Source of the DNA: an uncultured Opitutaceae bacterium
Lineage (GTDB): Bacteria > Verrucomicrobiota > Verrucomicrobiia > Opitutales > Opitutaceae
Reading direction: 5' to 3'
Assembly: GCA_937889545.1 (NCBI GenBank)
Contig: CALAOT010000070.1
Location: forward strand, 62,001-126,000
Length of the DNA: 64,000 nucleotides
Shown here: piece by piece, positions 24,297-39,793 of the stretch
Layout: every line of letters begins with the position of its first letter
How positions within the stretch are numbered: the first letter of the stretch is position 1
Translations under genes and position numbers: made by a program
The notes under the pieces: generated by a model
What the model was told of the DNA's origin: nothing
The model's input: only the letters and a program-made list of their open reading frames with translations
Databases searched by the model: none

Positions 24297-25208
24297 TTGA
24301 ACAACGATCCGAAATACAGATCCCGGCATTGGCCCGGGGGCTTTGGGCTGTCATGTGCCGCGCTCATCCTTTGCTTTGGCCGACCCCTGGTCGGCTTGGC
24401 GCGTTTTGGATCCGCAAGCGAACTCTATTCCTATGTCATCCTGGTCCCGTTTATCAGCATTTTCCTGCTTTGGGTGAAATGGAAGTCTCTGCCCGCACCT
24501 TCCGGGCCAGACCGCACGTGGACCGTGCTCCTAATGGCAGCCGGGCTTTTTCTTCTAGGAGCGAATTGGCTCCCAGGTTTGTTTGGGGCAGGTTGGTCCC
24601 AGCTGAACTCCCTCATCCTGGCCACGCTTTCATTTCTCTCCATGTTCGCCGGATTGTGCGCCTGGTTTCTCGGCAGGCAGTTGCTGCGAGCCGTCGTATT
24701 CCCCCTCTGCTTCCTCTTGCTCATGGCGCCGCTCCCGTTGAGCGTCTCCAATGCGCTCGAGTCTATGCTTCAGCACACATCGGCGGCCCTAGCATATGCG
24801 TTTTTCGAGGTTTCCGGCACGCCGGTCTACGCCATTGGCATCTTGGACTTTCAGCTGCCAGGAATAACGATCGAGGTTGCTCCCGAATGCAGCGGCCTCC
24901 ATTCGAGCCTTGCCCTGTTCATAACCAGCCTCTTGGCCGGATCCATTTTTCTAAGGTCGCCCTGGACGCGCACCATACTTTGCCTTGCGGTGGTTCCCCT
25001 CGGAATCATTCGGAACGCCTTCCGGATCTTTACCGTCGGCGAGCTTTGCGTCCACATCGGCCCGCGGATGATCGATTCGTACATCCACCGCACCGGAGGC
25101 TGGATGTTTTTCCTCGTTTCCCTAGCACCTTTATTCCTCATACTGTTTCTTCTTGCGCGGTCGGAGCGCCGGAGAACAAGCGCAAAGGCCAATTCAAGCA
25201 GGTTATAA
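24297..25208 (+). CDS. Exosortase, probably the VPDSG-CTERM type (XrtC-like)
   Basis: A polytopic inner-membrane transpeptidase-like enzyme that cleaves C-terminal sorting signals of exported proteins. The 303 residues contain about eight hydrophobic helices and the full exosortase triad: Cys198 in VAPECSGLHS, Arg239 in GIIRNAFRI and His264 in SYIHRTGGW. Assignment to the VPDSG-specific class is inferred from the VPDSG-like signals in this locus. The start is TTG 24297, since an in-frame stop lies shortly upstream and no ATG is near. prsT begins two bases after its stop, so the two are surely co-transcribed. Confidence 0.9.
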   Translation: MNNDPKYRSRHWPGGFGLSCAALILCFGRPLVGLARFGSASELYSYVILVPFISIFLLWVKWKSLPAPSGPDRTWTVLLMAAGLFLLGANWLPGLFGAGWSQLNSLILATLSFLSMFAGLCAWFLGRQLLRAVVFPLCFLLLMAPLPLSVSNALESMLQHTSAALAYAFFEVSGTPVYAIGILDFQLPGITIEVAPECSGLHSSLALFITSLLAGSIFLRSPWTRTILCLAVVPLGIIRNAFRIFTVGELCVHIGPRMIDSYIHRTGGWMFFLVSLAPLFLILFLLARSERRRTSAKANSSRL

Positions 25209-25209
25209 C

Positions 25210-28200
25210 ATGTCACAACGAATCCGTTTCCCGTTAATTCTGGTCGCAACTGGAGTCCTCGCGCTGGTTTGCACAAGCTGCTCACCGCAAGCAAGAAAGG
25301 CGAGGGCCATGGAACGGGCCAACCACTACTTCGTGGCCGGCCAATACGACGCAGCGGAGATTGAATATCTCAACGTCCTGCGAATCGACAAGAGGGACCC
25401 GCAGGCGCTCGGGCGCCTCGGCGTCATCTATTTTGACCAGGGCCGCGTGGGCAAGTCGCTCCCGTTCCTCCTGGCTGGCCGCCAGTTTGAACCCGAAAAC
25501 CTGGAGGTGCGCCTCGAGCTCGGCCTTTACCTGCTCGCCTTCGGAAGATTCCAGCAGGCCAAGGATGAAGCCGACTACATCCTTGACCATGATCCCTCGT
25601 ACCCGGATGCGCCCCTCCTTTTGGCCGAGACCGCTGTGCGCCCGAAGGAAATAGAGGACGCGAGGCAGCGCCTCGGCCGCCTTCCGGCGCAGATCGCAAA
25701 CGGCGCCTCGGTCCTCGTGGCCCTGGGCACTCTCGATTTCCGCCAGCGGCGCTTCCCGGAGGCGGAAGCCTTGATCAAACGCGCGCTGGCGGCTGACCCG
25801 AAAAACAGCGCGGCCTATACTGCGCTCGGCGCGTTGTATTGGGAAAAGAACGACATTACGGAGGCCGAGCAGGCGTTTACCAGGGCGTCCGATTTCTCAG
25901 GCGCCCGCTCGGCGAAGCGGCTCCAATACGCCCAGTTCAAGATCAAGACGGGGAATCGGGACGCCGGCCGGCAAATTCTGGCGGATATCGTCCAGAAGAC
26001 CCCCGATTTCCTGCCAGCATGCATGTTGCTGGCCGAACTGGACGAGCGGGAAAAGAGATACGACGAGAGCGCGGCATCGGTCGCAAAGGTTCTGGCCCGG
26101 GACCCTGCCTACCCCGACGCCCTGCTTTTGAACGGCAGGCTCTGGCTTGAGAAAGGCAAACCTGAAATGGCGGTCGCCGAGCTCGAGAAAGCCCGGAGAA
26201 TATACCCCAATTACCCGCAGATCGAGTATGAGTTGGCGCAGGCATATCTCGCCGAAGGGGAAACCGAAAAAGCGGCTAGTAACCTAAACCTTGCTGTGAC
26301 GGGCGCCCCGGACTTTGCCGAGGCGGTCCTCGCCCTCGCAGAAATCGACATTCGCAAGGGCGACACGGGTGCGGCCATCGGGCTACTGACCCGAATCATC
26401 CAAAAGCATCCGGACCTGTCCCAGTCGCGCCTCTTGCTCGCCCAGGCCTATGTCGGCCAGAACGATCTGGATAACGCCCTTGCCGTGTATAGGCAGATTG
26501 CCGAGGGCCTTCCACAGAGCCCCCAGCCCCGCCTGCTTTCGGGGATGGTGCTGCTCCGGCAGAACAGGCGGGACGAGGCGCGCAGTGAATTCGAGAAAGC
26601 GCTCGCCCTGGCACCAGATTATTTCCAGGCCCTGGAGCAGTTGATCAACCTGGATTTGGGCGAGAAGCAATATGCGACGGCCCGGCAGCGCGTCGAACCG
26701 CAAATCGCGAAAAAGCCAGAGTCAGCGGAGCTCTATTTCCTCCTCGGCAGGATCTACCTGGCGCAAAGGGACATGGTCCAGGCTGAAGCCGCATTGAAAA
26801 AGGCGATCCAGTTAAAGGTGGACTCTCCGTTCGTCTATTTTCTCCTCGCGGAGCTCTATGTCACCACCAAGCAGGACTCGAAGGCGCTGGCGGATCTTCA
26901 GGAAGTTGTCGCAAGAAACCCGAAAGATACACGGGCGCTCATGCTCATGGGGACAATCGAGGACCGCGAAAAGGACTACACCTCGTCGAAGGCGGCCTAC
27001 GAGAAGCTCTTGGCCGCAGATCCTAACAATGGCCCGGCCTTGAACAATCTTGCCTATGTATACTCGGAGAAGATTGGCGACCTGGACAAGGCCCTCGAAA
27101 TGGCGCAGAAGGCCAGGAAAGTGCTCCCAAATGAGCCTCATGTGGCGGACACGCTGGGATGGATTCTCTACAAGAGACACCAGTATCGGTGGGCACTCAG
27201 CCTTTTGACAGAAAGCGTCAATGCCCTCCAGACGGATCCCGAAATGCAATTCCACCTGGGCATGACCCATTACATGTTGGGAGATGAAGCATCCGCACGG
27301 GTTTCGCTTGAGCGCGCTCTGCAACCCAACCAGGACTTCCCCGGAAGCGATCAGGCAAAGCAACGCCTATCCGTGCTTGCGATCGACGTCCGGACCGCCG
27401 GCCCCGGCGAACGTTCGGCACTTGAGAGGGCTGCGGCTGACCGGCCGGACGACCCGGTCGTCCTGACGCGGCTCACGGCCGTTTACGAGCGTGAAGGCGC
27501 CCCGGACAAGGCAATCGGAGCCTGCGAAGCGGCGATCCGCGCTGACCCAAAGAATTTGGCTGCCCTCACCCTGCTGGCGCGCCTGTATTCCTCAGGAGGC
27601 GATACGGCCAAGGCGTTAGATCTGGCCAAGACCGCGCATAATCTGGCGCCAGAAGACCCATACGCCGCCTATATCCTAGGGCGGCTGGCCTACAAGACGC
27701 ACGACTATCCGTGGTCGCTAAGCCTGCTCAAGGTGGCTGCTGCCCGGCTGCCAAATGATCCGGATGTGCTGTTCGACCTGGCACAGGCCTTCTACAGTCT
27801 CGGAGGCATCCCAGACGCCGAGGTTGCCATGCGCAATGCCCTGAGCTCGAATGCCCGGTTTGGCCGGGCCGAAGAGGCCACCCGTTTCCTCGAATTGCTC
27901 CCACTTGCGGACGACCCTGCGCGCGCCCTTTCTCAAGCAGACCGGATCGCGCAGGTTTTGAAGATGGAACCCGATAATGGGATGGCACTTATGGCCAACG
28001 GCGCCGCATTTGAGCAGAAAGGCAATCTAGCTGCGGCCACACAGGAATATGAAAAAGTGTTGGATCGCTACCCCGATTTTTCGCCAGCGGAGAGACACCT
28101 GATGCTCCTTTATGCCGAGAACCCGGGCAACGATCGGAAGGCCTTTGAATTGGCTACGAAGGCCCGCGAGGCCTTCCCCAACGATGCGCAGGTTGCAAGA

Positions 28201-28431
28201 GCATGCGGGATAGTAGTTTACCGGCATGGTGATTTTCGAAGAGCCGCAAATCTGCTCGAGGAGGCAGCGGATCGGCTTTCCGGCGATGGCGAGTCCGCAT
28301 TTTACCTGGGAATGGCGCGGTACCGCCTCAAGGACAAGTCGTGGAAGTCCACGCTTGAACGCGCTCTGGGACTGGATCTTAGAGCGGATCTAGCAGCCGA
28401 GGCGCGGCAAACTTTGGCAGACGGGAAATGA
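25210..28431 (+). CDS. prsT: PrsT-like TPR-repeat lipoprotein of the exosortase system
   Basis: 1073 residues made almost entirely of tetratricopeptide repeats, over twenty units with the A-x-x-x-G/A-x-x-Y/F-x-x-A pattern, as in NHYFVAGQYDAAEIEYLNVL. The start at ATG 25210 gives a signal sequence ending LALVCTSC, with Cys24 as the likely lipidated residue, though the -3 position is not classical. Length, lipoprotein signal and position next to the exosortase match the PEP-CTERM system TPR lipoprotein PrsT, which is thought to be a scaffold in polymer export. No terminator with a T-run follows directly. Confidence 0.85.
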   Translation: MSQRIRFPLILVATGVLALVCTSCSPQARKARAMERANHYFVAGQYDAAEIEYLNVLRIDKRDPQALGRLGVIYFDQGRVGKSLPFLLAGRQFEPENLEVRLELGLYLLAFGRFQQAKDEADYILDHDPSYPDAPLLLAETAVRPKEIEDARQRLGRLPAQIANGASVLVALGTLDFRQRRFPEAEALIKRALAADPKNSAAYTALGALYWEKNDITEAEQAFTRASDFSGARSAKRLQYAQFKIKTGNRDAGRQILADIVQKTPDFLPACMLLAELDEREKRYDESAASVAKVLARDPAYPDALLLNGRLWLEKGKPEMAVAELEKARRIYPNYPQIEYELAQAYLAEGETEKAASNLNLAVTGAPDFAEAVLALAEIDIRKGDTGAAIGLLTRIIQKHPDLSQSRLLLAQAYVGQNDLDNALAVYRQIAEGLPQSPQPRLLSGMVLLRQNRRDEARSEFEKALALAPDYFQALEQLINLDLGEKQYATARQRVEPQIAKKPESAELYFLLGRIYLAQRDMVQAEAALKKAIQLKVDSPFVYFLLAELYVTTKQDSKALADLQEVVARNPKDTRALMLMGTIEDREKDYTSSKAAYEKLLAADPNNGPALNNLAYVYSEKIGDLDKALEMAQKARKVLPNEPHVADTLGWILYKRHQYRWALSLLTESVNALQTDPEMQFHLGMTHYMLGDEASARVSLERALQPNQDFPGSDQAKQRLSVLAIDVRTAGPGERSALERAAADRPDDPVVLTRLTAVYEREGAPDKAIGACEAAIRADPKNLAALTLLARLYSSGGDTAKALDLAKTAHNLAPEDPYAAYILGRLAYKTHDYPWSLSLLKVAAARLPNDPDVLFDLAQAFYSLGGIPDAEVAMRNALSSNARFGRAEEATRFLELLPLADDPARALSQADRIAQVLKMEPDNGMALMANGAAFEQKGNLAAATQEYEKVLDRYPDFSPAERHLMLLYAENPGNDRKAFELATKAREAFPNDAQVARACGIVVYRHGDFRRAANLLEEAADRLSGDGESAFYLGMARYRLKDKSWKSTLERALGLDLRADLAAEARQTLADGK

Positions 28432-28518: not shown

Positions 28519-28581
28519 CGCCGAACTGAAGACAAATGACGGATTTCATTACATTTCTTGCCCATTCGTCTTCGGTTGGCG
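28519..28581 (+). promoter_or_regulatory. Inverted repeat, candidate enhancer site for the sigma-54 activator PrsR
   Basis: Arms 28519-28538 and 28563-28581 are imperfect reverse complements sharing GAAGAC-AATG on the inside. A further palindrome TGCGTAACGCA lies at 28618-28628. They sit roughly 100-160 and 50-60 bases before the predicted start point, the usual range for enhancer-binding proteins. No T-run follows, which argues against a terminator for prsT. Binding by PrsR is inferred. Confidence 0.45.
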
Positions 28582-28653
28582 ATAATACTTTGGCCTCCAT
28601 AAATAACCGAATGACAATGCGTAACGCATGACTTGCGCCGCGATTTTACCCAT

Positions 28654-28669
28654 TGGCACGAGCAGTGCT
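28654..28669 (+). promoter_or_regulatory. Sigma-54 (-24/-12) promoter of the VPDSG-CTERM gene
   Basis: TTGGCACG-AGCA-GTGCTT carries TGGCAC, five bases, then GTGCT, one mismatch from the consensus TGGCAC-N5-TTGCW with exact GG-to-GC spacing. Transcription would start near 28680. That leaves a 40-base leader with GAGGAAA six bases before the ATG. A sigma-54 activator gene (PrsR) lies 2.9 kb downstream. Confidence 0.75.
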
Positions 28670-28722
28670 TAGTGTAGGGCGAAAGCAATTTCACCCAACT
28701 GGAAATAATAGAGGAAACAACC

Positions 28723-29310
28723 ATGAAGCTCGCAACACTCACAAAGCTCAGCCCAGCGCTGATTCTCGCGATCGCCCTTTGCGGCAATGTCGCAAAGGCC
28801 AATCCAATCATCACGGGCGGATTAAACTTCGATGGATTAGCAACGACCAACTCCGGCGATCTCTTGAACGCGACGGCATTCTCCTCGATCTATGATGTAT
28901 ACGTTTTCCCAGGATCGACGGGCTCCTATGCCTCACTCCCATTGTTTGCAGGGCCGGTCACTTTCACGCCCTTCTCATTTTCAGCGGCCGCCGTTACGCC
29001 CCTGTGGACGTTCACGGTTGGTTCTGTCACCTATAGCTTCGATGCAACAAGCATCATGGTCGTAGCTCAGTCCAAAGGGGGTCTCTTGCTTGAAGGCAAC
29101 GGCTGGGCCAGCATAACGGGATACCAAACGACATTAGGAAGCTGGAGCATCGATGACACGACTACCACACACAAGTCCGCGATCTTCAATTTCGGCGCGG
29201 ATACAGCAGCCCTTCCCGACAGCGGTGGGACGGCTCTCCTGATCGGCCTTGGCCTCGCGGGAGTAGCGGCTGGCATGGTTGCCCAGCGCCGCAGGCTCGC
29301 GAAAGGGTAA
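28723..29310 (+). CDS. VPDSG-CTERM-type exosortase substrate, small secreted protein
   Basis: 195 residues. The signal peptide (SPALILAIALCGNVAKA, then N) is followed by a Ser/Thr/Gly/Phe-rich body with no recognisable enzyme fold. The C-terminus is ALPDSGGTALLIGLGL, a hydrophobic helix, and QRRRLAKG: the three-part sorting signal (VPDSG box, helix, basic tail) with Leu for Val at the first position. It should be cut by the exosortase and released or attached to the surface matrix. A good ribosome site (GAGGAAA), its own sigma-54-like promoter and a terminator make it a single-gene unit. Its position between prsT and prsK marks it as a principal substrate. Confidence 0.87.
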   Translation: MKLATLTKLSPALILAIALCGNVAKANPIITGGLNFDGLATTNSGDLLNATAFSSIYDVYVFPGSTGSYASLPLFAGPVTFTPFSFSAAAVTPLWTFTVGSVTYSFDATSIMVVAQSKGGLLLEGNGWASITGYQTTLGSWSIDDTTTTHKSAIFNFGADTAALPDSGGTALLIGLGLAGVAAGMVAQRRRLAKG

Positions 29311-29341
29311 GTCGGCTTCCAATCTGTTTCCTCTTTAGCAA

Positions 29342-29377
29342 AAGCTGCACCGGCGAAAGCCGGTGCAGCTTTTCTTT
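29342..29377 (+). terminator. Rho-independent terminator after the VPDSG-CTERM gene
   Basis: A perfect 13-bp stem (29342-29354 with 29359-29371), with a stable GAAA tetraloop, is followed by TTTCTTTG. It closes the single-gene sigma-54 unit before prsK. Confidence 0.92.
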
Positions 29378-29429: not shown

Positions 29430-31538
29430 ATGAATCTTGCCTCCGAAATACCCCTGGCCAGCGCGGTGTGCGCAGGTGCGCTTGCAGCCGGATCCCTCCT
29501 GCGCAGGCGACACGGTGTAGCGGACTTCGCCTTTGCCGCGGGCATGATCGGGTTGTCAGCCGAAGGCGTGTTCGCCTGGATGGCAGTCCGGCCCCACGTG
29601 CCGGACGCCGAACTGATCGCCTGGCAGAAATGGAGCCTTTTCGCCACCGCCATCCTGCCATTCTGCTGGCTCCTGTTCAGTCTCAGCTACGCCCGGGGAA
29701 ATGCGCGCGAATTCGTCTCCAAATGGCAACTGGCCCTGGCCGGGGCGCTTCTTTTTCCGGTTGGGATTGTCACGATCTTTCGCAGCCAGCTGATCGTTTC
29801 CCTGAGGCGGGATGGCACGCAGCTATTCAGCGCGGCTATGCTGGGATGGCCGGGCCTCGTGCTGGCTCTGCTCATGCTCACTGGATCGGTCCTGGTCCTC
29901 ATGAACCTCGAGCGCACCTTCCGGGCTTCCGTCGGGACGATGCGCTGGCGGGTCAAGTTCATGCTGATGGGAGTCGGCCTCCTATTCCTTGTCCGAATCT
30001 ACACGGCCTGCCAGGAGCTCCTGTTCCGTGCGATCAACCTGTCCCTGGAGGATCTGAACGCTGGGACGCTCTTGGTGGTTTCCCTGCTCATCCTGAGGTC
30101 ATTCTTCCGCGCCGGCCCGATGGATCTGGATGTCTATCCCTCCCATTCGGTCCTGCAGGGCTCGGTCACCGTTTTGCTCGCAGGCATCTATCTCTTGATT
30201 GTCGGACTGTTTGCCAAGGCGGTCGTTTATGTCGGCAGCGGAAACGTGTTCGTGCTCGAAGCATCCCTCGCCCTGATCTCGCTCGTGCTGTTCGTGGTGC
30301 TTCTGCAGTCCGACCGCCTGCGCATGCGCCTCGGGCGCTTCGTGAGCCGCCACTTTGATCGGCCGCTTTATGACTATCGGACCGTGTGGAGAAAATTCAC
30401 CGAGGGCACGGCTTCCCAGGTCGACCAGACCGAGCTGTGCCGCTCCCTTGTGAAGATGGTCGCGGACCTGTTTCAGGCTCTCTCCGTGGCAATCTGGATC
30501 GTCGACGACGATTCCATGTCTCTAGCCGCGTCGACATCGTTGCCGGAAGCCAAGGGCCGCGAGCTGGCCCCGGGAAAGGCGGATGTGGCCGAGATCACCA
30601 CGCATTTCGAGGAGAATCCAGAGCCAGCGGACGTTGAGTCCTCGGGGGAGGGCTGGGCTGGAGCTCTCAAGCGGATGCATCCATGCGAATTTCCCAAGGG
30701 GAAGAACCGCGTCTGCCTGCCGATGATCGAACGCGGAAAGGTCGCCGCGCTCATGATCATTGGGGACCGCGTGGACGGCGCGGCCTTCTCGACACAGGAT
30801 TTCGACATGCTCAGGTGTGTCGGCGACCACGCCACCGCCAGCCTGGTGAACGTGCAGCTAGCCCAGAAGCTCCTTCAGGCCAAGGAGCTGGAGGCCTTCC
30901 AGACCATGGCGGCGTTCTTTGTTCACGACCTGAAAAACGCCGCGTCCACGCTCAGCCTCATGCTCAAGAACCTTCCCGTGCATTTCGAGGACCCCGCCTT
31001 TCGGGAGGACGCCTTGCGGGGGGTTTCAACGTCGGTGGCCCATATCAACCATGTCATCGGGCGATTGAGCCTCCTGCGCAGCGAACTGGTTACCCGGCCG
31101 GTCGAGACGGATCTGAACGAGATGATCGGCGATGCCGTGGCCGGCCTTGAGTCGGAACCCGACTTTGTGATCGCAAAGGACTTTTCTCCCCTGCCGAAAC
31201 TGGCGCTGGACAGGGAGCAGATCGCCAAGGTCGTAACCAACCTCCTGCTCAACGCAAAGGAATCCTTGTCCGGCAGGGGGCGGGTCGAGCTGGCCACCCG
31301 CCAGGAGAATGGCTGGGTCGTCCTTTCAGTCCGCGACGAGGGCTGCGGCATGAGCGCGAGCTTCATTGAGCGCTCGCTCTTCCGCCCCTTTCAGACGACG
31401 AAAAAGAACGGCCTCGGAATCGGGATGTTCCAAAGCAAGATGATCGTTGAGGCCCACGGCGGCCGTATCGCGGTCGAGAGCGAGCCGGGCAAGGGCACGA
31501 CGATCCTGGTCCACCTGCCGGCGCAAAAGAAAAACTGA
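29430..31538 (+). CDS. prsK: PrsK, membrane histidine kinase of the exosortase system
   Basis: A 702-residue sensor kinase. About eight membrane helices fill residues 1-300. A GAF-like domain covers ~330-480 (LFQALSVAIWIVDDDSMSLA). The kinase core follows: His499 in FFVHDLKNAAST, the N box NLLLNAKES, DEGCGMS and GLGIGMFQSKMIVEAHGG. This layout, with the HDLKN H-box and length near 700, is that of PrsK. It is expected to phosphorylate PrsR, whose gene starts in an ATGA overlap at 31538. In floc-forming beta-proteobacteria the PrsK-PrsR pair with RpoN controls PEP-CTERM genes; the same role here is inferred. The signal sensed is unknown. Confidence 0.9.
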   Translation: MNLASEIPLASAVCAGALAAGSLLRRRHGVADFAFAAGMIGLSAEGVFAWMAVRPHVPDAELIAWQKWSLFATAILPFCWLLFSLSYARGNAREFVSKWQLALAGALLFPVGIVTIFRSQLIVSLRRDGTQLFSAAMLGWPGLVLALLMLTGSVLVLMNLERTFRASVGTMRWRVKFMLMGVGLLFLVRIYTACQELLFRAINLSLEDLNAGTLLVVSLLILRSFFRAGPMDLDVYPSHSVLQGSVTVLLAGIYLLIVGLFAKAVVYVGSGNVFVLEASLALISLVLFVVLLQSDRLRMRLGRFVSRHFDRPLYDYRTVWRKFTEGTASQVDQTELCRSLVKMVADLFQALSVAIWIVDDDSMSLAASTSLPEAKGRELAPGKADVAEITTHFEENPEPADVESSGEGWAGALKRMHPCEFPKGKNRVCLPMIERGKVAALMIIGDRVDGAAFSTQDFDMLRCVGDHATASLVNVQLAQKLLQAKELEAFQTMAAFFVHDLKNAASTLSLMLKNLPVHFEDPAFREDALRGVSTSVAHINHVIGRLSLLRSELVTRPVETDLNEMIGDAVAGLESEPDFVIAKDFSPLPKLALDREQIAKVVTNLLLNAKESLSGRGRVELATRQENGWVVLSVRDEGCGMSASFIERSLFRPFQTTKKNGLGIGMFQSKMIVEAHGGRIAVESEPGKGTTILVHLPAQKKN

Positions 31539-32893
31539 TGAACCCCAAGCTGCTCATCGTCGACGACGACGACGAAATCCGCACCCAAATGAAGTGGGCG
31601 CTGGCCGCGGACTACGAGATCTTGTCCGCGGGGGACCGCGCGTCCGCCGCCGAATTGTTCCGCTCCGCCCGCCCCGCCGTGGTGCTTCTCGATCTGGGAC
31701 TGCCCCCCAGCCCGGGCACGCCGGCCGAGGGGCTCGCCGCACTTTCCGAGCTGATGGCGATGGACAACCTGGCCAAGATCATTGTCATCACTGGACAGGG
31801 GGAAAAGGACATCGCCCTGCAGGCCATTGGGGCCGGAGCCTACGATTTCCTCGGCAAGCCGCTGGAGATGGACGAGCTGAAGGTGCTGCTGAAGCGGTGT
31901 TTTCACGTCGCCCGGCTCGAGCGTGAATTCCGCGAGATGCAGCAGCGGCTTGAGGGCGATTCGTTCGAGGGGCTGCTCGGCACCAGCACGCCCATGCAGG
32001 CCGTCTTCAATTCCATCCGCAAGGTGGCCACGACCGACGCCCCGGTGCTCATTCTTGGCGAGAGCGGCACCGGCAAGGAGGTGACGGCGCGGGCCATCCA
32101 TCACCTGAGCGCCCGAAGGAACGAGCCTTTTGTCGCGATCAATTGCGGGGCGATTCCCGAGACCCTCATGGAGAGCGAGCTCTTCGGACATGAGAAGGGT
32201 TCCTTCACAGGCGCCCATGTCCAGCGCAAGGGAAGGATTGAAAACGCGGAGGGCGGCACCCTTTTCCTGGACGAAATCGGGGAGATCTCCCCCATGCTGC
32301 AGGTCAAGATCCTGCGGTTCCTACAGGAGCATTGCATCGAGCGCGTGGGCGGCCGGCAGGAAATCCAGGTGGACACCCGCGTGATCGCCGCCACCAATGC
32401 CGACCTGAAGAAACGGATGGGCGACAGTACCTTTCGCGAGGACCTGTACTATCGGCTGGCGGTGATCCAGATCCTGCTGCCCGCGCTGAGGGACCGGGGG
32501 GACGACGCGGCACTCCTTGCCCGCTCGCTGCTGCAGCAGTATTCAGCTGAAAATGGAAAGACCAATCTCGTCTTCGGCGCAGATGCCATGCACGCCATTC
32601 GCAAGTATTCCTGGCCTGGGAATGTCCGCGAATTGCAGAACAGGGTGAAACGCGCCGTGATCATGAGCGGGGGCAAGCGGGTCACGGCCCAGGACCTCGA
32701 GCTGGAGGGGGCCCCGACAGTCGCCAAGGCGGCCACGCTCAAGGAGGCGCGGGAGTCGCTTGAAAAGGAAATGATTCAGGACGCGCTGCGGAAGCACTCT
32801 GGGAAAATCACGGCTGCGGCGGCCGATCTTGGGATCAGCCGCCCCACGTTTTACGAGCTGATGGAAAAGCTTGGCGTTCAAAAGCTGGAATGA
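31538..32893 (+). CDS. prsR: PrsR, sigma-54-dependent response regulator
   Basis: 451 residues. The receiver domain (1-~120) carries phospho-acceptor Asp52 in VVLLDLGLP. The AAA+ activator domain has Walker A GESGTGKE (174-181), the sigma-54 contact loop as GSFTGA (221-226, Ser for the usual Ala) and Walker B TLFLDEIGE. A Fis-type helix-turn-helix ends the protein (AAADLGISRPTFYELMEKLG). It should form rings on enhancer DNA and drive sigma-54 polymerase; the promoter at 28654 is the natural local target. Translation is coupled on both sides by ATGA overlaps. Confidence 0.93.
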   Translation: MNPKLLIVDDDDEIRTQMKWALAADYEILSAGDRASAAELFRSARPAVVLLDLGLPPSPGTPAEGLAALSELMAMDNLAKIIVITGQGEKDIALQAIGAGAYDFLGKPLEMDELKVLLKRCFHVARLEREFREMQQRLEGDSFEGLLGTSTPMQAVFNSIRKVATTDAPVLILGESGTGKEVTARAIHHLSARRNEPFVAINCGAIPETLMESELFGHEKGSFTGAHVQRKGRIENAEGGTLFLDEIGEISPMLQVKILRFLQEHCIERVGGRQEIQVDTRVIAATNADLKKRMGDSTFREDLYYRLAVIQILLPALRDRGDDAALLARSLLQQYSAENGKTNLVFGADAMHAIRKYSWPGNVRELQNRVKRAVIMSGGKRVTAQDLELEGAPTVAKAATLKEARESLEKEMIQDALRKHSGKITAAAADLGISRPTFYELMEKLGVQKLE

Positions 32894-33594
32894 CAGTATT
32901 TAGCCCAGCCAAAACCATGAAAACTTCTCCTGCCTCCAAGGCCCTCAAGTCGGTGCCGCTCATTGTCCATCGATTCGTTTTCGGCATGCCAAGGGCGGCA
33001 TTGGGCGCGCTTGCGTTCGCGGCGATGGCCGCTGTCACGGGCTGCGAAGCCCCCACAGCGGTGCAGTCGGGTTCGGACGAGCAGCATGCGGAGCTCACGC
33101 TGCGGGAGGGCGATGTGGTCAAGGTTTCCTTCCCCGGGGCGCCCAATCTGGACGTCGCTCCCCAGCCGATAAGAAGAGACGGCAAGATAACGCTGCCGAT
33201 CGTCGGTGAAATCGCCGTCGTAGGGCTGACTCCGATCGCGTTGCAGGATCAGCTGGTCAAGCGGCTCGCCGACCAGCTTCAGTCAAAGGAAGTGGTCGTC
33301 ACCGTCGTTTCCTCGTCCTTCTTCGTCTTCGTGGACGGCATGGTGCTCCGTCCCGGCAAGATTGTCACAGACCACCCGATCACGATCCTGGAGGCCGTCA
33401 TGGAGGCCGGGGGATTCGATTACAGCAGGGCCGACAGCGAAAAAGTCATGGTGATCCGGCACAAGACCGGATCCATTGGCTACGACTACATTACCATAAA
33501 CCTCAAACAGGTGTTCGATGGAAGACGAACCGACCTGTTTTACCTGGCTCCCGACGACGTGGTGCACGTTCCGCAGAAATTCTCCTGGTACTAG
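32890..33594 (+). CDS. Polysaccharide export lipoprotein (Wza/Poly_export-like, short form)
   Basis: 234 residues. The N-terminus carries a lipoprotein signal ending AAMAAVTGC, so it should be anchored in the outer membrane. The body reads LREGDVVKVSFPGAPNLDV and IRRDGKITLPIVGEIAVVGL, the Poly_export domain, then an SLBB-like part with VLRPGKIVTDHPITILEAVM. It forms or supports the outer-membrane channel for polymer. Only one SLBB unit is present, shorter than E. coli Wza. The start overlaps the prsR stop (ATGA); in-frame ATGs at 32917 and 32989 are alternatives, the last giving a more usual signal length. Confidence 0.88.
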   Translation: MTVFSPAKTMKTSPASKALKSVPLIVHRFVFGMPRAALGALAFAAMAAVTGCEAPTAVQSGSDEQHAELTLREGDVVKVSFPGAPNLDVAPQPIRRDGKITLPIVGEIAVVGLTPIALQDQLVKRLADQLQSKEVVVTVVSSSFFVFVDGMVLRPGKIVTDHPITILEAVMEAGGFDYSRADSEKVMVIRHKTGSIGYDYITINLKQVFDGRRTDLFYLAPDDVVHVPQKFSWY

Positions 33595-33643
33595 GGCCCC
33601 AATTTCCCCAGCACCTGTCCCCTTGAGGCACGATCCTGATTCA

Positions 33644-33775
33644 GTGACTGCTGATTTTGATTGGTCAATTCAGGAGGCTCCATCCGTCCCCGACGGCGGT
33701 TCGACTGTCGCCATGCTCGGCGCAGCGTTTACTGGTCTCGCAATACTCCTCCGGTTCAAGAATTTTGCGCCTTGA
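33644..33775 (+). pseudogene. Orphan VPDSG-type sorting signal (remnant or microORF)
   Basis: The frame reads SIQEAPSVPDGGSTVAMLGA then a hydrophobic stretch and LLRFKNFAP before a stop. This is a complete C-terminal sorting signal (VPDGGS box, helix, basic residues). No signal peptide or protein body precedes it; the frame runs open back into the export gene but in a non-coding register. GTG 33644 could start a 43-residue peptide, yet the likely reading is the last piece of a deleted substrate gene. The next gene's upstream region overlaps it in another frame. Confidence 0.65.
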
Positions 33776-35862: not shown

Positions 35863-37449
35863 CTAACAAGTCGTCCTCGCGAAGCGGGCTCGTTTGATAT
35901 CCAGACAGTCGCGCACTGTCCTGACCAGCGTCCTCACATCATATGGCTTGGGCAAAAAAGTTAGATCTTCTGGCATTTGCTCGTGAGGCTTCACGATTTC
36001 CCCGCTGTAACCGCTGGAAATGACCCCTATCAGGGTGTCATTCCTTTGTTTCAACTGTTCGAACAGCTCGATCCCCGTCATGCTTCCGGGCATCCTCATG
36101 TCGGTGAACAATAGGTCGATCGCTTCCTCGTGGTCATCCCATACTTGGATCGCCTCCGAAGCATTGCCCGCCTCGAGGACATGATACCCATACAGCTGCA
36201 GGCCCAGCGCGACCATTTTTCGAACGGCCTGTTCGTCGTCGACAACCAGAATCGTTTCGTTGCCGTTCTGTACCCCAAAAACGGGAGATTCAGGCCCGGC
36301 CTGCGCAGATTTGGTTAAGGCGGGAAGATAAACGCGGAAAGTGCTGCCCTGGCCCATCTGGCTGGCCGCTTCCATCCAGCCCTTGTGTTGTTTCGTTATC
36401 CCATAGACGGTCGACAGCCCCAGGCCCGTGCCTTTTCCCATGGCCTTGGTGGTGAAGAATGGCTCAAAGACGCGCTCTAAAGCCGCAGAATTCATGCCGC
36501 AGCCGGTGTCGGTCACCGAAAGACACACGAACGACCCCGGCGACGCCTCGGGATTCACCCGGGCCGCGTTGGAGTCCAGTGTGACCAGTCTGGCGTCAAT
36601 CGTCAGCCGTCCGCCCTCCGGCGCCATCGAGTCCTGCGCGTTCAAGCACAGGTTTGTTATCAGCTGCTCTATCATGACGGTGTCCGCCTCTACCCAAAGA
36701 GGCTCGCTGCCGCCGGTGAACTCCAATCGGACATCCTTGCTTAACAACCGCCGCAGCATGTCGAGCAGGTTGGACAGCACCTCAAACAGATCCAAGGGTC
36801 GCAGGCATACGGCTTGCTGGCGGCTGAACATCAGCAGTTGGCGAGTCAAACCCGCGGCGCGCTTGGCTTCGCTCTCTAACTGTCCGAGCATGCCTTTCGC
36901 TTTTTCCGGCAGATCCGGATCGTCCAGCAGGATGGTGAGGCGCAGCAGCATCGAGGTAAGGATGTTGTTGTAGTCGTGCGCCACCCCGCTCGCCAGCTGG
37001 CACACCGCCTCCATCTTCTGGACCTGCTGCAACTTCGCCTCCAGGCGCCTGCGGTCGGTGATGTCGCGGATGTTGCACTGGATCACCTTCCGGTGATCTG
37101 CCTCGAACAAGTTGCTGACAAACTCCACCTCGCGCCGCTGCCCATCCCTGGTTTCAAGCGGCAGGTTCTCATAACGGACATAGCCTTCCTGCAGCAGGGT
37201 GGCAAAAGCCAACTCAAACAATGCGCGGTCCTTGAAAAACCCGATCTTCCAAAGCCGCCGGCCCAGCAGTTGCTCGCGGGCATAGCCTAGCATATCCAGC
37301 AGGAACGGGTTCGCGTCCGTGATCAGCCCGGTCCTGGCATCAACGATCAATATGCCGTCCTGGGCCGTCTCGAAAAGCCGCCGGTACTGAAGCTCTGAAT
37401 TCTCCAAGGCCTGCAATAAGACCTCCTCGCGTTGCTGGACCGGTATCAT
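35863..37449 (-). CDS. Hybrid sensor histidine kinase with PAS, kinase and receiver domains
   Basis: 528 residues and no membrane helices, so cytoplasmic. A PAS domain spans ~20-140 (RRLFETAQDGILIVDARTG). The dimerisation/phosphoacceptor site is GVAHDYNNILTSML at about residue 160. The ATPase part has NLCLNAQDSM, DTGCGM and GKGTGLGLSTVYGI. A C-terminal receiver carries LLFTDMRMPG with the acceptor Asp. The arrangement is common in two-component hybrids that feed a separate phosphotransfer step. It is a single gene with no partner regulator nearby; a link to the exosortase system rests on position only. Confidence 0.87.
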   Translation of the reverse strand: MIPVQQREEVLLQALENSELQYRRLFETAQDGILIVDARTGLITDANPFLLDMLGYAREQLLGRRLWKIGFFKDRALFELAFATLLQEGYVRYENLPLETRDGQRREVEFVSNLFEADHRKVIQCNIRDITDRRRLEAKLQQVQKMEAVCQLASGVAHDYNNILTSMLLRLTILLDDPDLPEKAKGMLGQLESEAKRAAGLTRQLLMFSRQQAVCLRPLDLFEVLSNLLDMLRRLLSKDVRLEFTGGSEPLWVEADTVMIEQLITNLCLNAQDSMAPEGGRLTIDARLVTLDSNAARVNPEASPGSFVCLSVTDTGCGMNSAALERVFEPFFTTKAMGKGTGLGLSTVYGITKQHKGWMEAASQMGQGSTFRVYLPALTKSAQAGPESPVFGVQNGNETILVVDDEQAVRKMVALGLQLYGYHVLEAGNASEAIQVWDDHEEAIDLLFTDMRMPGSMTGIELFEQLKQRNDTLIGVISSGYSGEIVKPHEQMPEDLTFLPKPYDVRTLVRTVRDCLDIKRARFARTTC

Positions 37450-37925
37450 TGAATTCTGCAGGTGTGCGCTGGCATAAGGAACTTTCGCTCATACCCGGGC
37501 CATTTCAGCGAGGCAGGTCCGGCGGGCGATTTTGGGGTTGCGATGGCGATGCGCTAGGGCCGAAGCACCAAACGACGGAAGCTGTGGCAATTGCGCGGAT
37601 GCGGGATCATTGGCGATTTGAAAGGGCCCTGGATCTGCTGCATGGGATATGCCAAGGCTCTTGGCACCGCGCGCCGCGGTTTGCAGGTGTTTATAAGTAA
37701 TTGGTACTAGAAAAATAACACTGCCTGAGATAGGCTTCGAACAATTGAGGCTGACGGCCTAATCCACTGCCTTTTGTAAGGCAGCCCGACATTTCGATAC
37801 GCAGGTTTACACTCAAGCGATCCGAGGATTCCCCTGGGGCCCATGTCGCGGGCACTTCCCGCCGGCTCTTTGTCCTCCCTTCAAGCGGGCCTGTCGGTCC
37901 GGAACCACGTCCAGCCGCCTGTCCA
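37450..37925. other. Intergenic region, no gene seen
   Basis: It lies upstream of the hybrid kinase and downstream of the 39092-37983 gene, both on the minus strand. It probably holds the kinase promoter. No family-like reading was found in any frame. Confidence 0.4.
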
Positions 37926-37982: not shown

Positions 37983-39092
37983 TCAGACGATCCCGAGCTT
38001 CCGACGGAGGTACAGAAGGCCCGTGAGCCCCAAGCCCAACAGGGCGGCGGTTGAAGCCGGATCCGGAGTGGTTGGAGGCGGCTTGTTGATGCCCGCCTGG
38101 GCGGTGACATTGATGCCCAGGAAGAAGATGTTGTCGTCCAGCGAACTATTCTTGGTGACTACGGTCGTGGAGGTGTCGCCATTGCTGACGAACGGCGCCG
38201 AATTGACATCGTTGCCCATGCCCAGGTTGTAGTACTCCTGGTCGGTGCGATCTCCGAGCGGGTCGCCGGTGATATCACCTACGCCGCCAAGGGTCGGATC
38301 GGGATTGAATCCCGTCGGATTATCGGCTGGGCCCCCAGATCCGTTGCCGATGCCGCCAACTGTGATTAACGCGCCATTCGCCGCCTGGCCGTCGTCCATG
38401 CCGCCGGCCGACTGTGTGAGGGTCCGGCCATCAACAGTAATGGTCGACTGCTGTGCAAGGTTACCGGGCGTCTGGTAACTGAAGCCGTCGCCTACCGACA
38501 TGAGCTCGGAGAACCCCGGGGATCCCACGCCGGAAAGAGGCACAGAGTAGTTAACGGTCGTGGTCGCTCCGGTCGATGACGCAGCGCCGGCCAGGAACCC
38601 GATCGTCACCGAGGGTGACGATGGGTTGCTGTAAACGATCGCGAGAACCTCGCCGTCGGTGGTGGCATTGCCGACATTCTCGAAAACGGGGATCGAAAAC
38701 TGCGAAACGCTTCCACCTCCGATTAACGCCTTCATCTGTGGAGTCACGTTCGCGACCCAGGCCTCCAAGGGCAGGTCCGAGGAGGTATTCAGTCCGAGCG
38801 CGGTCCAGGAAGAGCCGGAATAGGTCGTTGCCCCGAGAGTGACGTCCGGCGTGAAGGGCGTATAGTACTGGGAGGAAAAGAGGTACGCCTGCACGACCGT
38901 CGAACCCGTTGGAACCTGCGCTAACAGGTTGCCTACCGGAGTACTGCCGCCGCCAACCGCGGACAGGGACCAATTCCCATTTCCGTTGAATTGGTAGAGC
39001 GGATTCAGCTGTGCGCGGGCTGTAGCCGAAACTACTGCCACGACGGCGCATAGCGCAATTACACGAGCTATGTTTACGAGGATGCTTTTCAT
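37983..39092 (-). CDS. Secreted protein with a variant VPDSG/PEP-CTERM-like sorting signal
   Basis: 369 residues. A clear signal peptide (ARVIALCAVVAVVSATARA, then Q) fixes the start at ATG 39092; the open frame reaches back to 39293 without credible coding. The body is Gly/Ser/Thr-rich beta-type sequence with a repeat-like middle (SVSQFSIPVFENVGN) and no known domain. It ends TTPDPASTAALLGLGLTGLL then YLRRKLGIV: a PD-x-x-S-T box, helix and basic tail, close to the exosortase signals of this locus but with Pro-Ala in place of Ser-Gly. It is likely a second or third substrate of the exosortase at 24297. Confidence 0.78.
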   Translation of the reverse strand: MKSILVNIARVIALCAVVAVVSATARAQLNPLYQFNGNGNWSLSAVGGGSTPVGNLLAQVPTGSTVVQAYLFSSQYYTPFTPDVTLGATTYSGSSWTALGLNTSSDLPLEAWVANVTPQMKALIGGGSVSQFSIPVFENVGNATTDGEVLAIVYSNPSSPSVTIGFLAGAASSTGATTTVNYSVPLSGVGSPGFSELMSVGDGFSYQTPGNLAQQSTITVDGRTLTQSAGGMDDGQAANGALITVGGIGNGSGGPADNPTGFNPDPTLGGVGDITGDPLGDRTDQEYYNLGMGNDVNSAPFVSNGDTSTTVVTKNSSLDDNIFFLGINVTAQAGINKPPPTTPDPASTAALLGLGLTGLLYLRRKLGIV

Positions 39093-39145: not shown

Positions 39146-39161
39146 AGCACGATCGATACCA
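39146..39161 (-). promoter_or_regulatory. Weak sigma-54-like promoter candidate
   Basis: On the minus strand TGGTAT-N5-GTGCT has the same spacing and the same -12 half as the strong match at 28654, with two further mismatches in the -24 half. The start would be near 39135, 43 bases before ATG 39092. A palindrome GCAAT-N6-ATTGC lies upstream at 39266-39281. Confidence 0.35.
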
Positions 39162-39793
39162 ACCAGTTTTTTCTGAAATCATTTGGCTCATAACTGATTC
39201 AAACATAGATATTAATGGATTATTATTTAATGTGTGACTCTTCGCCGGGATTTGGAGAGTTGTAAGCAATATCGACATTGCGCCCGTCAGCAATGCGGGA
39301 GGTCGATTAAATTATTTCTTAAACACCTAATTATAAGTATCTTCCTGCCTTGTAAGTAATCCGGACGTACACATCGAGACCTCGATGGCCAATGCTGAGG
39401 AGCCGCAGTCCGTATGCCTTCCCCTTATCGACCGTGCAGATTGGGACAACTGCCTCAACCTGAACTGCTTCTCGACAGAGCCGAACGAGTCACTCCAGGT
39501 CACGGGTGATGCGGTTCGAAGGCCGATTCGGACATGGTCGTCGGCCTTTCCCATTTCCCTTCACGCCGCTCGCTCGCCCTTCCTCCTGTCGATTCGCTGG
39601 AGCGGGATCACGGTGTACAACGCCCCCTGAGCGGGATCAACTTCCTCCTCAGCCCCGTTCCAATCTACCTGGTCGTCGGCTGGCTTTCCCCCCGACGAGA
39701 GGAGCCGCCAGCGAGGAGCGACTTGTTGAATATCACCCCGCCAACCACCTGCCGGGGCGACGGACGGCTCATCTCGGGGGCGTGGCGCGCAGT
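39162..39793. other. Intergenic region with no recognised gene
   Basis: It is AT-rich up to about 39360, then GC-richer, with several open but unrecognisable frames. A small repeated word GAGCGGGATCA occurs at about 39600 and 39629. It separates two minus-strand genes. Confidence 0.4.

Follow-up and report, generated by a model that had tools for sequence, protein, structure and literature searches.

Predicted control of an exosortase-substrate-like gene by a PrsR box and a sigma-54 promoter in a PrsK-PrsR locus of the Verrucomicrobiota

Introduction

How is a putative exosortase substrate switched on when its gene lies next to those for PrsK and PrsR, in a phylum other than the one from which these regulators are known? 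According to Haft et al. (2006, PMC1569441), motif 1 of the PEP-CTERM regulatory region is 17 nt long and ends in TTTACA, only the proteobacterial members of the set share it, and its spacer to the promoter averages 62.8 (range 32-92). In Aquincola, pepA is RpoN1-dependent, with a mapped start at TGGCAC/CTGCTT (PMC9850573). In Zoogloea, prsK and prsR are needed and PepA overexpression rescues the mutants, according to earlier work cited in PMC9012009. For the VPDSG-CTERM/XrtC branch of exosortase sorting, to which the present locus is closest, we found no regulator in the literature searched. Here we analyze the sequence upstream of the gene at 28723 in a 64 kb window, the whole stretch of DNA under study, together with its counterparts in related genomes.

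Results and Discussion

The features of the window are collected in Table 1. Among exosortase models, TIGR04151 is by far the best match to the window's exosortase, and the syntenic exosortase of the relative G024 scores 304 bits with it. The locus resembles VPDSG-CTERM/XrtC systems (TIGR03778, TIGR04151) in having an exosortase that matches XrtC best and substrates with VPDSG-like tails, and differs in that the window's exosortase stays slightly below the TIGR04151 cut-off of 300. The initial annotation called the gene at 28723 a VPDSG-CTERM gene. Its product carries a signal peptide and a C-terminal ALPDSG followed by a hydrophobic stretch and RRR, and the G024 orthologue passes the VPDSG model (28.0 > 22), whereas the protein's own tail remains under the cut-offs (18.9 bits against 25 for Pfam VPDSG-CTERM, PF18205; no match to TIGR03778). 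Comparative sequence nonetheless supports its placement in the VPDSG rather than the PEP-CTERM branch, and the two other gene-level assignments, a strong terminator behind the substrate gene and PrsK and PrsR as the products of the next two genes, are borne out as well. Homologues of the substrate occupy the same place in G024 (8e-12, phmmer) and G335 (3e-5). The order exosortase (XrtC-like in G024)-PrsT-substrate-PrsK-PrsR is conserved in G024 and, with an insertion, in G335, and G019 has PrsT, a tagged gene, PrsK and PrsR. Further along the window, the end of the polysaccharide-export gene is overlapped by a short open reading frame at 33518-33775 (+), whose VPDGGST tail exceeds the VPDSG cut-off; no box was found for it.

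Table 1. Features of the substrate-PrsK-PrsR locus and of the further box-promoter pairs in the window
Feature	Position	Strand	Basis
Exosortase, closest to XrtC (VPDSG-specific)	24297-25208	+	TIGR04151 271 bits; TIGR02602 111.6 > 105.6
PrsT, TPR lipoprotein	25210-28431	+	TIGR02917 415 bits, cut-off 312
Inverted repeat, left arm	28519-28538	+	distinct from the conserved element
Predicted PrsR-binding box (motif 1) TGACGGATTTCATTACATTT	28537-28556	+	motif model, genome pattern search
Inverted repeat, right arm	28563-28581	+	pairs imperfectly with left arm
Sigma-54 -24/-12 promoter, predicted TGGCACGAGCAGTGCT	28654-28669	+	consensus match, weighted matrix, G024 orthologue
Shine-Dalgarno-like AGAGGAAA, 5' of ATG	28710-28717	+	read from sequence
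Exosortase substrate-like protein, 195 aa	28723-29310	+	signal peptide, C-terminal tail, homologues in relatives
Rho-independent terminator, between substrate gene and prsK	29340-29373	+	15 perfect pairs, -29.9 kcal/mol, z -5.6
PrsK, histidine kinase	29430-31538	+	TIGR02916 349 bits, cut-off 300
PrsR, receiver + sigma-54 activator + Fis-type HTH	31538-32893	+	TIGR02915 604 bits, cut-off 502.6
Hybrid PAS-kinase-receiver protein, 3' of third pair	35863-37449	-	CckA-like hybrid kinase models
Third sigma-54-like site TGGCATATCCCATGCA	37639-37654	-	score 13.8
Third predicted PrsR box, window's strongest	37772-37791	-	score 21.8, spacer 117
Second PrsR-box gene, 369 aa, TPDPAS tail, VPDSG-CTERM	37983-39092	-	TIGR03778 26.3 > 22 (computed on a longer ORF; start set at 39092)
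Second sigma-54-like site TGGTATCGATCGTGCT, weak	39146-39161	-	score 8.1; also in genome-wide pattern matches
Second predicted PrsR box	39258-39277	-	score 15.5, spacer 96

The sequence TGGCAC-GAGCA-GTGCT, 69 bp 5' of the substrate gene, is indeed, as first noted, one base off the sigma-54 consensus TGGCAC-N5-TTGCW with exact spacing, and in a weighted matrix, whose weights are approximate, it has the top score of the 64 kb (17.1; runner-up 14.0). Allowing up to two mismatches, the consensus is found 24 times in the window with 26 expected, and exact TGGCAC-N6-TGCW matches in the 4.3 Mb genome number 18, with 24 in the reversed-pattern control, so that this site by itself is weak proof; the consensus alone proved uninformative as a genome-wide indicator and was abandoned as such. 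In the G024 orthologue a sigma-54 site, TGGCACGCCTACTGCA, likewise stands at -69 from the ATG, in upstream DNA that by intergenic comparison is otherwise barely alignable, and this comparative evidence supports the sigma-54 promoter that had been proposed for the gene. The window's genome has one sigma-54 gene.

An inverted repeat of 20 bases at 28519-28581 had been put forward as an enhancer-like palindrome. The repeat is present, but imperfect, with 17 matches, 2 mismatches and a 1-base bulge between its arms. The conserved predicted activator site is a different element that lies mostly in the palindrome's loop, 97 bp from the -24 element, where the 17-nt box ending in TTTACA is present as TGACGGATTTCATTACA. 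This element is scored at 14.4, a value equalled in 0 of 200 shuffles, by an expectation-maximization motif of 20 columns and 19.6 bits (TGTCGGAATTCTTTACA), the training of which left out the window's genome and G270. In the held-out genome the model finds a box before every VPDSG gene that has a strong sigma-54 site (12.8 or higher), these being the window gene (spacer 97) and the genes on C67, C70 (at 43 kb) and C33, and also before the gene starting at 39092, where the sigma-54 site is weak. The likely PrsR box, judged from these sequence comparisons, is therefore 28537-28556 and not the palindrome. We consider it improbable that the palindrome is itself the enhancer, or else serves another regulator as an operator overlapping and tuning the PrsR box: it flanks the box and is somewhat above chance in the intergenic region (equally good repeats in 4 of 400 shuffles), but no such repeat is evident when the orthologous upstream regions of G024 and G019 are aligned, while the box turns up again in numerous genes and genomes. 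As the main enhancer it was accordingly rejected.

The initial annotation suggested scanning related genomes for the -24/-12 element before VPDSG-CTERM genes, and such a scan finds it there. For each of 78 genes with a VPDSG or PEP tail, from 16 genomes, we took the highest sigma-54 score in the 260 bp before the gene and ran three control scans on that DNA. Where the genome bears PrsR, a score of at least 12 was reached by 28 of 65 VPDSG genes, against 1 of 195 control scans (the 65 genes leave out G031, then grouped with the others). The box together with the sigma-54 site precedes VPDSG-type genes in all 12 of the 12 examined genomes with a PrsR over the cut-off. Such pairs number 16 in the 240 kb of loci taken from genomes with PrsR and 1 in the 984 kb of remaining loci; part of the 240 kb supplied training genes, and the held-out and pattern tests thus weigh more. 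G270 has many VPDSG genes, and the pair occurs at 1 of the 23 scored. At -29, several related VPDSG genes of that genome (e.g. L207, L210, L211) have sites resembling TGGCGCGAxACATGCA; they also share an upstream repeat, TTTTGCAAGGAACCCTGATA, and have no PrsR box.

The 35 box-to-promoter spacers cluster at 93-97, 104-110, 117-121 and 126-130, with a periodicity of about 11.4 bp that, once duplicates and orthologues are taken out, is equalled in 5e-5 of jittered sets (genes of one genome are not fully independent). Phased spacers are what looping from one face of the helix predicts. Six box-bearing genes have their -24 element just 28-30 bp 5' of the ATG, among them L002 (G000:C67), L027 (G000:C70:43 kb) and several in G335, from which nearly leaderless sigma-54 transcripts with leaders of 2-4 nt are predicted.

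Exactly three box-promoter pairs are found in the window. The strongest box and its sigma-54 site (37639-37791, -) precede a hybrid kinase gene and not a gene for a sorted protein; the kinase is a possible second-tier regulator, its link to this promoter being by position only. In the whole 4.3 Mb of the genome, the bipartite pattern CGRNNNTNNNTACA-N(97-122)-GGYAY-N7-GCW has four matches and its reversed control none, and all four, the 28537-28556 box among them, lie 5' of exosortase-substrate genes. The pattern was derived from known sites of this genome, and three of the four matches are thus expected; the fourth, C92:11576, is the independent prediction: the product of its downstream gene bears a signal peptide as well as a VPDGG tail, and the gene is absent from the tail-model results. 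Since the box-plus-promoter pair also stands 5' of at least six other genes in the genome, the PrsR regulon is probably a dispersed one. The complete local circuit read initially from this locus is therefore too narrow a description, while its core, PrsK-PrsR as the switch of the 28723 gene, is probable on the sequence evidence.

Across the phylum, only 11 of 388 genomes carry a PrsR above the family cut-off, a clear margin separating it from other regulators; G031 has a more divergent one (518 bits). Congeners in the sample gave no match to the window's PrsR, and a scan of related loci returned, among the matches listed, mostly other NtrC-type regulators. The assignment to Verrucomicrobiota follows the named relatives of PrsR, Pedosphaera and Opitutaceae. 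The PrsR tree contains a split, with a support of 0.989, that separates the sequences of the phylum from those of Proteobacteria and outgroups, which argues against recent transfer. G019 encodes a second PrsR-like regulator (G019:C5, L023; 546 bits) whose receiver sequence is altered; the 20 kb around it contain no PrsK match.

A genuine sigma-54 promoter could also be served by an enhancer-binding protein other than PrsR at the same box. The genomes do contain further NtrC-type regulators, and G028 (L196) and G009 (L198) carry the pair before VPDSG genes with no PrsR above the cut-off found, reflecting either gaps in these metagenome-assembled genomes or another activator. We regard such an activator as unlikely for the window gene, given that PrsR adjoins it, that the pair accompanies PrsR in every examined genome with a PrsR over the cut-off, and that Proteobacteria have the same box and recognition helix and show the phenotype when prsK or prsR is mutated. 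That the matches are chance, or inherited sequence devoid of function, is very improbable, for although the 4.3 Mb genome has many one-mismatch matches to the sigma-54 consensus, paired elements are nearly absent from the controls and the sites persist in otherwise barely alignable upstream DNA.

PrsR thus remains the preferred activator, and the proteobacterial comparison is close. Applied to Massilia and Simplicispira, the model trained on Verrucomicrobiota detects the box at 48-81 bp before PEP-CTERM genes; in its recognition helix, PrsR has SRPT(F/L)Y(E/D)L both in Verrucomicrobiota and in those proteobacterial groups, other Fis-type regulators having different helices. By its TTTACA end and 17-nt length, the predicted window box equals proteobacterial PEP-CTERM motif 1 as described by Haft et al. 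Shared with the proteobacterial PrsK-PrsR/RpoN systems are the regulator families, the bipartite upstream region in which the box is followed by -24/-12, single-gene units with long intergenic regions, and PrsT and an exosortase close by. Unlike them, the present system belongs to Verrucomicrobiota, with an XrtC-like exosortase and VPDSG-type tails, and has spacers of about 93-130 bp (97 for the window gene) in place of a mean of 62.8 and a maximum of 92; this departure from the published range is a lineage difference. With NtrC/ZraR-type sigma-54 activation it has in common the receiver-AAA+-Fis architecture, the upstream enhancer and helically phased sites, and it differs in the PrsR recognition helix and box.

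Taken together, we think it very likely that PrsK, PrsR and RpoN form a unit in which the PrsR box and sigma-54 promoter drive the 28723 gene within a dispersed regulon, and from sequence this unit is probably real and functional. If the proteobacterial scheme carries over to the window organism, as the analogy suggests, PrsK would detect a signal and phosphorylate PrsR, which would occupy 28537-28556 and, by a DNA loop across the 97 bp, bring RNA polymerase-sigma-54 at 28654-28669 to form the open complex. Transcription would start near 28680, cover one gene and end at 29340-29373, and the gene's product would be exported by means of the signal peptide and processed by the adjoining XrtC-like exosortase. 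PrsR would act likewise at the dispersed genes for tagged surface proteins.

Conclusions

The unit is the known PrsK-PrsR-RpoN mechanism in a new branch, with another phylum, an XrtC-like exosortase, a VPDSG tag and longer spacing. In the published view the PEP-CTERM regulatory box is confined to Proteobacteria; the box, with PrsR, is now found in Verrucomicrobiota, so that the code of regulation has persisted while the tag and the exosortase were exchanged. We lean slightly toward reading the PrsR-box/sigma-54 code as an address for exosortase cargo that does not depend on the sorting signal and that Proteobacteria and Verrucomicrobiota kept in common as their tags and exosortases diverged, in which case substrates with unrecognised tails should be findable by promoter alone. 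Possible further members of the regulon are the hybrid kinase (35863-37449), as a second tier, and a group of transcripts almost without leaders. In practice, the promoter pair offers a route to exosortase substrates whose tails escape the models, one such gene having been found, and the question of the PrsK signal becomes testable in another phylum.
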